NCBI GenBank assembly: GCA_938048695.1
Contig: CALIUO010000013.1
Location: 1-58,371 of the forward strand
Source of the DNA: an uncultured SAR86 cluster bacterium
GTDB taxonomy: Bacteria; Pseudomonadota; Gammaproteobacteria; Magnimaribacterales; Magnimaribacteraceae
DNA length: 58,371 bases
Direction: 5' to 3'
Shown here: one piece after another, positions 57,125-58,371 of the stretch
Position numbering within the stretch: the first letter of the stretch is position 1
How the letters are laid out: each line of letters starts with the position of its first letter
The notes under the pieces: model-generated
The model's input: only the letters and a program-made list of their open reading frames with translations
Told to the model about the DNA's origin: nothing
Database searches by the model: none
Made by a program: the position numbers and the translations under genes

Positions 57125-57371
57125 AAAATATAAAAAAGATCTAGAAGGGATGGATACTCCTCCCTACCCGGGAGATAAAGGTCAAGATATATTCGATAAC
57201 GTATCCAAACAAGCTTGGGAAGAATGGTTAGAGCACCAGAAAATGCTTATTAATGAAGGTCAAATTAATCTTGCCGATAGAGAATCTAGAAAATGGCTTA
57301 ATGAGCAGATGGACCTTTTTCTTTCAGGGGAGGATTATGCGAAACCGACTGGATTTAAACCAGTAGAGTAA
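57102..57371 (+). CDS. yggX: Probable Fe(II)-trafficking protein YggX
   Basis: An 89-residue protein linked to protection of Fe-S clusters from oxidation. RIVFCKKYKKDLEGMDTPPYPG carries the conserved Cys; AWEEWLEHQKMLINEGQINLAD is the family core. Its start lies 23 nt inside mutY, the usual mutY-yggX coupling in gammaproteobacteria; MutY itself is an Fe-S enzyme. Confidence 0.96.
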   Translation: MTRIVFCKKYKKDLEGMDTPPYPGDKGQDIFDNVSKQAWEEWLEHQKMLINEGQINLADRESRKWLNEQMDLFLSGEDYAKPTGFKPVE

Positions 57372-57395
57372 AACTTACTTTTTTAGAATCAATTA

Positions 57396-57422
57396 ATTGT
57401 ATACAATCGCAACACTCTTTAA
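57396..57422 (+). promoter_or_regulatory. tRNA-Phe promoter -10 with overlapping palindrome
   Basis: TACAAT (57402-57407) is the right half of a perfect 12-bp palindrome ATTGTATACAAT (57396-57407), followed by CGCAACACTCTTTAAG up to the tRNA. No good -35 is seen. Confidence 0.45.
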
Positions 57423-57498
57423 GCCCAGATAGCTCAGTCGGTAGAGCAAAGGACTGAAAATCCTTGTGTCGGTGGTTCGATTCCACCTCTGGGCACCA
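57423..57498 (+). tRNA. tRNA-Phe (GAA)
   Basis: A 76-nt cloverleaf with encoded CCA. Acceptor GCCCAGA/TCTGGGC, D arm GCTC/GAGC, anticodon stem AAGGA/TCCTT with loop CTGAAAA (anticodon GAA), T arm GGTGG/CCACC with TTCGATT. Its 3' half from 57454 is duplicated at 57720, the hallmark of a site-specific integration target. Confidence 0.97.
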
Positions 57499-57539
57499 TT
57501 CTTACAGCATTCTTACCCTCTAAATCATTTCGCATACTT
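57454..57539 (+). repeat. Direct repeat copy 1 (attL-like; tRNA-Phe 3' half plus 41 bp)
   Basis: 86 bp perfectly repeated at 57720-57805. It covers 45 bp of the tRNA (from the anticodon loop to CCA) and 41 bp beyond. It contains two CATTCTTAC 9-mers 11 bp apart (57497, 57508) and ends with CGCATACTT (57531-57539). Confidence 0.95.
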
Positions 57540-57719
57540 GTCGCATACTTTCTGCTATACTGTTATGTATGGTTAGAAAGCCAGAAGAAATGTTGATAAC
57601 ATACACAAAAAAGAATTTCCATTGCCTATAAGGTAATTCATAACGCACATTCTTACGCACACTAAATTTAGCACCCTCGCAAACCCTTTATTTACAAGCA
57701 CTTTTCGTCAAGCAATATT
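57540..57719. other. 180-bp segment between the two attachment-like repeats
   Basis: No convincing gene. It holds another CGCATACTT at 57542-57550 (11 bp after the one ending copy 1) and another CATTCTTAC at 57650-57658. A 32-codon open frame (57569-57667) lacks a clear RBS or homology I recognise. It is probably a remnant of an integrated element or the arm region of an attachment site. Confidence 0.5.
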
Positions 57720-57805
57720 CTGAAAATCCTTGTGTCGGTGGTTCGATTCCACCTCTGGGCACCATTCTTACAGCATTCTTACCCTCTAAATCATTTCGCA
57801 TACTT
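57720..57805 (+). repeat. Direct repeat copy 2 (attR-like; partial tRNA-Phe)
   Basis: Identical over 86 bp to 57454-57539, offset 266 bp. It is a tRNA fragment without the 5' half (starts in the anticodon loop), so it cannot encode a functional tRNA. It is followed by 60 bp with a weak promoter (TTGTAA 57813-57818, TATTTT 57836-57841) leading into the repeat-protein gene. Confidence 0.95.
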
Positions 57806-57865
57806 TTTTAGTTTGTAATATCCAAAATATAAAAGTATTTTTAAAACATAAATGGAGAAAAGGCT

Positions 57866-58371
57866 ATGAAAAAATTATTTTTATTATTTTGTTTTTGTAT
57901 AGGCACGGTTTATGGTGCCGGAGAAACTTTAATGGTGAAATCTTTGGGTGATACTGATGGAAATGGCGATCAGATAGATATCAACATCAAAAAGGTAACT
58001 AATTTATTGGTGGATGGCAAAAGTGTTACTCAAGCGATTGCTGATGTAGCCACCAACACAACCAACATTGCGACCAACACAACCAATATCGCAACTAACG
58101 CCGCTGGCATAGCCACCAACAACAAAACCAACATTGAGACCAACACAACCAATATCGCAACCAACACAACCAATATCGCAACCAACACAACCGATATCCC
58201 AACCAACACCGCTGGCATAGCCACCAACACAACCAACATTGCGACCAATACCATTGGGATAGCCAACTATGTTGTGAGGCTGGATAACTTGGCTGCTTTG
58301 GCTGCCTCTAATACCAGTCGAGTCGAAGGCTTGGAGACGCTAACTGGTCTTATGCAAAATGAATACCGCAG
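57866..58371 (+). CDS. Exported heptad-repeat protein, fibre/adhesin-like (partial, runs off the window)
   Basis: 168 codons are visible without a stop. A signal peptide (MKKLFLLFCFCIGTVYG) precedes a linker (about 18-61), then ten consecutive repeats of consensus ATNTTNI (62-132), one expanded to eight residues (ATNNKTNI, 83-90), and a following helical segment RLDNLAALAASNTSRVEGLE. Heptads with Ile at a fixed place suggest a trimeric coiled-coil stalk as in YadA-type adhesins or phage tail fibres. GGAG lies 9-12 nt before the ATG. ACC/AAC codons make the repeats richer in C than neighbouring genes. Confidence 0.8.
   Translation, partial: MKKLFLLFCFCIGTVYGAGETLMVKSLGDTDGNGDQIDINIKKVTNLLVDGKSVTQAIADVATNTTNIATNTTNIATNAAGIATNNKTNIETNTTNIATNTTNIATNTTDIPTNTAGIATNTTNIATNTIGIANYVVRLDNLAALAASNTSRVEGLETLTGLMQNEYR
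58049..58261 (+). repeat. Ten tandem 21-nt (one 24-nt) coding repeats
   Basis: Units of the form GCAACCAACACAACCAATATC encode ATNTTNI heptads. Units differ at third positions and at a few codons (AAG, TDI, PTN, TIG variants). The near-identity of adjacent units allows slippage or recombination that changes stalk length in frame. Confidence 0.9.

Follow-up and report, generated by a model that had tools for sequence, protein, structure and literature searches.

The window analysed here, i.e., the whole stretch of DNA of 58,371 nucleotides, corresponds to the entire contig C13 of the source assembly (G000) and ends with it at position 58371. Close to this end, ARAGORN disclosed an intact tRNA-Phe gene (GAA, anticodon at position 34) at 57423..57498 on the + strand, whose 3' half, from 57454 onwards, would represent an attL core. 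An 86-bp repeat begins inside this gene. Its first copy (57454..57539, + strand), recognised by a repeat finder and in the sequence itself, is composed of 45 bp of the tRNA, from position 32, where the anticodon loop starts, to position 76, through the encoded CCA, and of 41 bp of downstream DNA embedded in a left arm (see below). The same 86 bp are found again, as an exact direct repeat, at 57720-57805, with a start-to-start distance of 266 bp and a spacer of 180 bp. A preliminary description of this DNA had already reported the perfect duplication of the tRNA-Phe 3' half and its division into 45 bp of tRNA and 41 bp of flank, and both statements hold. In the region 57300-58371, the Rfam gathering score was reached by the tRNA alone. 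According to that description, a third copy of the repeat was to be sought by extending the contig rightwards; in the G000 assembly (1.33 Mb, 59 contigs, 84.8% complete), no third copy of the core was found. Besides the two copies, the core matched in G000 at E <= 0.001 only the tRNA-Asn of C14 and, with 75% identity, a stretch of C7. As for the remark that no integrase was in view, the PF00589 profile, applied to 61 genomes, agrees with it: no match was retrieved on contig C13, and the three matches of G000 are located on C7, C22, and C23.

The spacer and the arms were searched in an order-wide set of 203 genomes, and the matches came piecewise. In the left arm (57499..57551, + strand), TCGCATACTT occurs twice, at 57530-57539 and again at 57541-57550 (offset 11); the arm is shared with G046 (family f4), at 52/53 bp, and with G107 (family f2), where its first 40 bp are identical. 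The pair itself, even with up to two mismatches allowed, was detected in G000 and G046 only among the 203 genomes. The 41 bp following the tRNA in the repeat are conserved at 41/41 positions in G046 and at 40/41 in G107; since (nearly) the same bases are present in these two genomes of families f4 and f2, they are uninformative on recency and, on the basis of this comparison, are best regarded as a conserved element end (the left arm), providing no clock. The suggestion that the 41-bp identity reflects a recent event was thus not borne out, and a recent duplication deduced from it was rejected, those bases being common to other families. More generally, caution is needed with repeats of this kind, in which identity past the tRNA may be due to the conservation of an element end rather than to a recent event. 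Scans of IMG/VR yielded 0 matches for the left-arm word and 0 for the repeat pair; four phage records showed 44-bp matches, confined to the tRNA core.

Further along the spacer lies a gene stump (57577..57636, + strand) consisting of the last 19 codons, KARRNVDNIHKKEFPLPIR, and the stop codon, with an in-frame stop codon upstream. It matches the 3' end of a gene on contig C4 of G172, with 87% DNA identity over 53 bp and 15/19 identical residues (hand count). A whole copy of the parent gene was found in this one genome out of 203, and not in G000. The G172 gene sits, together with two PF00589 ORFs (one above the family cut-off, the other below), in a stretch bounded by a partial tRNA-Met on one side and an intact one on the other; in IMG/VR, two stretches matched the gene, neither of them encoding a relative. 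It can also be observed that the G172 element (L107 5539-5584, L222 1829-1905) is flanked by a copy of the tRNA-Met 5' half and by the intact tRNA-Met and that, therefore, it is the 5' half that is duplicated there, not the 3' half.

The last part of the spacer is occupied by the right arm (57634..57719, + strand), in which ACGCACA is present in two copies, one at 57643-57649 and the other at 57655-57661 (offset 12). Its counterparts in G106 (86% identity) and G123 (84%) both stop exactly at a partial tRNA-Phe, and the GCAATATT/core junction is common to the window, G106, and G123. In G107, the left arm is directly joined to the right arm, without a clear second core, and this arrangement can be read as a still smaller remnant. 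The tRNA-Phe of G107 includes an NN scaffold join (L106:8250-8251) surrounded by a few repeated bases. The right arm is only weakly matched in G046 (76% of 46 bp), about 1.2 kb further on and beyond a 354-aa ORF, without a clear partial tRNA. On the whole, the 180-bp spacer looks like an element without cargo, in which a left arm, a 19-codon stump, and a right arm follow one another. The arm search revealed the 266-bp arrangement in no other of the 203 genomes, the arms being joined in G107 and the second core absent. The DNA following tRNA-Phe is different in most of the relatives compared, a few groups being alike.

The second core (57720..57764, + strand), recognised in the sequence and by the repeat finder, is a partial tRNA-Phe (positions 32-76) that would serve at the same time as attR core of the stripped element and as attL core of the next one. 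It is followed by a second copy of the left arm (57765..57805, + strand; sequence and arm searches), containing one of the two repeats, which probably represents the start of a second element: given that the second core is followed by an identical left arm, a second cassette of the same family probably lies behind it. At 57866..58371 (+ strand), a gene cut by the contig end encodes a repeat protein with NTTNIAT repeats and a signal-like start, which is the probable cargo of this second element. Among the possibilities listed in the preliminary description, the residue of a deleted element and the tandem att are therefore the ones that stood, the former on account of the two element ends and the 19-codon stump in the spacer and the latter of the second core with its left arm, and recency is the one that fell. 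According to that description, an element edge would be refuted by relatives that share the 266-bp arrangement but lack variable DNA downstream; none was encountered, the arm search having shown the arrangement in no further genome of the 203.

It is plausible that the second element extends past 58371. In several relatives of the same genus, tRNA-Phe is followed by an alpha/beta-hydrolase gene block. Since in G000 this block is located near the end of another contig, C2, unassembled DNA probably exists between the ends of C13 and C2, and the true far end of the second element probably falls within it. The ends of C2 and C13 are without overlap, and the search for a continuation of the repeat gene on the other G000 contigs gave no match better than E 0.05. 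Five further genomes among the 203 contain matches to the repeat protein, with E values between 3e-25 and 2e-4, and the least significant match may be due to the repeats alone; the relative in G023 lies about 1.2 kb downstream of tRNA-Phe, and those in G015 and G010 are near tRNA-Thr. A relative of the repeat protein at L217:979-2157 matches no Pfam family; its C-terminus presumably resembles a trimeric autotransporter anchor, and its interpretation as a putative adhesin is based on its repeats and on this C-terminus.

The 45-bp core was also searched (up to three mismatches) in the order, and it is present in 164/203 genomes. Two or more cores occur in 47/203 genomes and three in 6 of them (hand count of the match table, made twice); in two of the 47, G006 and G136, the copies are on different contigs. 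As a control, a tRNA-Asn pattern was used, which matched 52/203 genomes and misses more divergent genes: within these same 52 genomes, multiple cores were found in 9 for Phe vs. 1 (G000) for Asn. The tRNA-Phe site is a hotspot across the order. The census of its cassettes covers 37 loci: 35 of the 47 genomes contributed one locus each, and G026 and G036, with partial copies that do not reach the core threshold, were added. It leaves out G006, with its copies on separate contigs, and 11 more of the 47. From these 37 loci, 44 cassettes were delimited, ranging from 221 to 9,483 bp (median 1,763). In a Pfam scan of 20 cassette proteins chosen by eye, a DNA methyltransferase or restriction-type protein was recognised in 12/44 cassettes, that of G067 being a restriction-type helicase; PhyH, HNH, and MazG-like proteins were recognised in others.

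The analysis of the cassette ends revealed stereotyped paired repeats at an end in about half of the cassettes. At the right end, 16/35 non-redundant cassettes have repeats of offset 12 and a run of at least 8 vs. 18/680 interior windows, with 0 cassettes at offset 10 and 3 at offset 11; at the left end, repeats at offset 10 are present in 13/35 vs. 1/680, with 3 at offset 11 and 4 at offset 12. The length scanned was 140 bp for interior windows and right ends (100 bp for the right end of the window's own unit) and 110 bp for left ends. With a run of 7, pairs are found at both ends in 13/35 cassettes and at neither end in 7/35. The positions are also regular: right pairs (offset 12, run of at least 7) lie 58-81 bp before the core in 21/44 cassettes, an additional pair 183 bp from the core in G073 being taken as chance, and left pairs (offset 10 or 11, run of at least 8) lie 28-63 nt after the CCA in 17/44, with one further pair at 82. 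Words of at least 10 bp are common to both ends of one cassette in 18/44 cases vs. 135/1,878 cross pairs. The pairs of the window are TCGCATACTT with offset 11 and ACGCACA with offset 12, the latter being short at 7 bp. The integrase-bearing element of G056 has similarly designed repeats at both ends (AAGTCATCA, offset 11). In the accessible literature, from which many subscription papers fall outside, no account was found of integrase-less cassettes carrying repeat pairs at their two ends, and titles and abstracts contained nothing relevant on SAR86 and tRNA hotspots.

As to the enzymes that might move these cassettes, no integrase was detected in 42/44 by means of a local integrase profile, and a recombinase-like gene is present in two (G056 and G042); the profile was built on 10 proteins including those of G056 and G042, and, being trained on these matches, it therefore detects only others like them. 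Integrases of the PF00589 family, about 100 bp from partial tRNA-Phe copies, are present in G056 and G006. Both exceed the PF00589 cut-off; for the Arm DNA-binding domain, the G006 integrase exceeds the cut-off and that of G056 falls short of it. No integrase associated with CGCATAC-type repeats was found among the 203 genomes, the left pair being limited to G000 and G046. On contig C23 of G000 (L054), an integrase with an Arm DNA-binding domain is located at 1072-2424, beside a partial tRNA-Asn at 2500-2544, which corresponds to the tRNA-Asn 3' half of 18/21 genomes of family f4 and differs from the tRNA-Asn of G000 itself (on C14). Either the element came from a different family, or contig C23 was misbinned. 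Its integrase was considered as the one belonging to the 266-bp element and rejected: it is not tied to it, because its neighbour is the partial tRNA-Asn.

In some cases, the same cassette is shared by genomes of different genera or families. A 1.81-kb cassette is the first after the tRNA in G036 (genus g9) and the second in G078 and G077 (genus g17), with 99% identity between G036 and G078 and 97% between G036 and G077. Similarly, an 878-bp PhyH cassette is 96% identical in G031 (family f1) and G127 (family f2), and the DNA upstream of their tRNA (up to 1.6 kb) gave no blastn match at E 1e-5. The comparison of these sequences points to the transfer of single cassettes and to their stacking beside the tRNA; since many assemblies are fragmented, misbinning could affect single cases of transfer.

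The 266-bp unit is thus probably a CIME-like cassette, decayed, devoid of an integrase and of its former cargo, which stands in tandem with a second one at a tRNA hotspot. According to this interpretation, a cassette would have entered at the anticodon loop of tRNA-Phe through site-specific recombination by a tyrosine recombinase, supplying a new tRNA 3' half and displacing the old one to its far end, where it would now be the second 45-bp copy. Both arms would have been retained, each with a short repeat pair resembling (putative) integrase arm-binding sites, and the interior would have been deleted later, except for the final 19 codons of one gene. Behind the second core would lie another cassette of this family, containing the repeat-protein gene; the newer cassette would be the one adjoining the tRNA, as in the single case in which the stacking order could be followed. 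Since most cassettes are without an integrase, they are probably served in trans by a helper, of the type that G056 and G006 have at tRNA-Phe. In favour of this interpretation count the exact repeat beginning at the anticodon loop, the right-arm/partial-tRNA junction in G106 and G123 together with the left arm in families f2 and f4, and the match of the stump to a gene of the recombinase-bearing G172 element, as well as the multiple cores in 47/203 genomes (9 vs. 1 against tRNA-Asn), the end repeats, the two shared cassettes, and the integrases close to partial tRNA-Phe copies in G056 and G006. Against it count the lack of a matching integrase, the 7-bp right repeat, the 7/35 cassettes without pairs and the mere 13/35 with both, the unassembled far end of the second element, the right-arm matches of G046 and G107, which are weak or without a clear core, and the NN gap in the tRNA of G107.

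The same repeat might be the left boundary of a larger island, as the preliminary description had also considered, with copy 1 as attL, copy 2 as a tandem or secondary att, and the island's own integrase beyond the contig end. The contig indeed ends within a probable cargo gene, the gene block that usually comes next is placed on C2, and tRNA-Phe elements with their own integrase are known (G056, 9.5 kb). However, in the spacer the right arm is located directly before the second core, and therefore the first unit is closed by itself. Moreover, of the three PF00589 matches of G000, two have what we presume to be the size of XerC/XerD and the third, on C23, adjoins the partial tRNA-Asn, and no integrase was detected in 42/44 cassettes at tRNA-Phe. 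We regard such an island as unlikely; it can be true together with the cassette interpretation as far as the second element is concerned.

It is even less likely that the arrangement was produced by the assembly, the 86-bp exact repeat having joined, in the graph, a separate loop (an excised circle or a strain variant) to the chromosome. A repeat of 86 bp falls among the k-mer sizes with which short-read assemblers operate, the G000 assembly is in 59 contigs, and the contigs of G010, G014, and G020 end at tRNA-Phe position 50-52. Nevertheless, G106 and G123 independently show the right-arm/core junction, it is common in the order for partial copies to follow tRNA-Phe, even within contigs of 1.2-1.3 Mb (G035, G056), and such a loop would still represent an end-to-end junction of the element. 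Finally, the short spacing and the perfect identity could be accounted for by a plain local duplication (slippage or unequal exchange) involving no mobile element; yet the unit begins exactly at the anticodon loop, the spacer combines two element ends with a foreign stump, and elsewhere, too, the right end adjoins tRNA copies, so that this origin appears very improbable.

The cassette interpretation refers to a class that is already known, i.e., additive islands at tRNA genes and CIME accretion. Additive flexible genomic islands at tRNA genes are reported, in the accessible text of the papers concerned, for Alteromonas, Ca. Actinomarinales, where tRNA-Phe is among the single-copy tRNAs concerned, and Methylophilaceae, with sizes from 330 bp (PMC4119200, PMC7771536, PMC10872708). 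The tRNA-Phe site shares with them a variable content at a fixed location, the flank differing in most relatives compared and 47/203 genomes having multiple cores; on the other hand, those islands belong to other lineages and can be much larger, and repeat pairs at cassette ends are not described in the accessible text. Integrating elements leave partial tRNA genes, as stated in the part available of PMC9897764. In CIMEs, according to the available text of PMC5704250, attL and attR are kept, the integration and transfer genes are lost, and tandems arise by accretion. The unit in the window likewise has two att cores (57454-57498 and 57720-57764), which enclose the left and the right arm, and its integration/transfer genes are lost, the 180-bp spacer containing only the 19-codon stump and C13 no PF00589. 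The difference is that CIMEs are decayed ICEs or IMEs (accessible text of PMC5704250), whereas the likeness concerns here the ends, the lost genes, and the tandem arrangement. Many tRNA-Phe cassettes also differ from CIMEs in having one or few open genes.

Tycheposons are said to have been described by Hackl and co-workers in 2023 as tRNA-associated cargo elements of marine bacteria, which is what the unit resembles. They measure 4-200 kb and carry a tyrosine recombinase, as far as the accessible part of PMC10872708 states. The 266-bp unit is without PF00589; the contig end is inside the second element, and therefore this difference is valid for the 266-bp unit only. An array of small cassettes growing from a single dock would presumably also recall the integron. 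The latter is presented, in the available text of PMC4119200, as an array of small gene cassettes at one dock. The window's dock, in contrast, is a tRNA gene, the ends are arm-like direct-repeat pairs plus the tRNA 3' half, and an integrase is absent next to the array.

A broader and more tentative possibility, which we would not yet call probable, is that tRNA-Phe acts in this order as an integron-like cassette dock without a resident integrase, with standard ends, exchange between families, newest-first stacking, and a helper coming from elsewhere, the window being a cargo-less example. The cassettes of such a dock would be mostly small, many with one or few genes (restriction-modification, PhyH oxygenases, surface proteins), and their ends would have repeats at offset 10-11 on the left, some 28-63 nt past the CCA, and at offset 12 on the right, some 58-81 nt ahead of the core. 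Even with a genome of about 1.3 Mb, a bacterium has to exchange defence and metabolic genes, and an integrase-free tRNA dock for small cassettes with standard ends would be cheap. The end structures provide a search pattern and a prediction that can be tested at the bench, i.e., which integrase acts on which ends.

A minor observation concerns a protein of about 107 aa (MEKNM...), found by eye in 8/44 tRNA-Phe cassettes, as in L199:2616-2945, L108:8463-8792, and L038:5159-5482. The member of L199, the single one scanned, had no Pfam match at E 0.01, and an ORF similar to this protein is present on C23 of G000.
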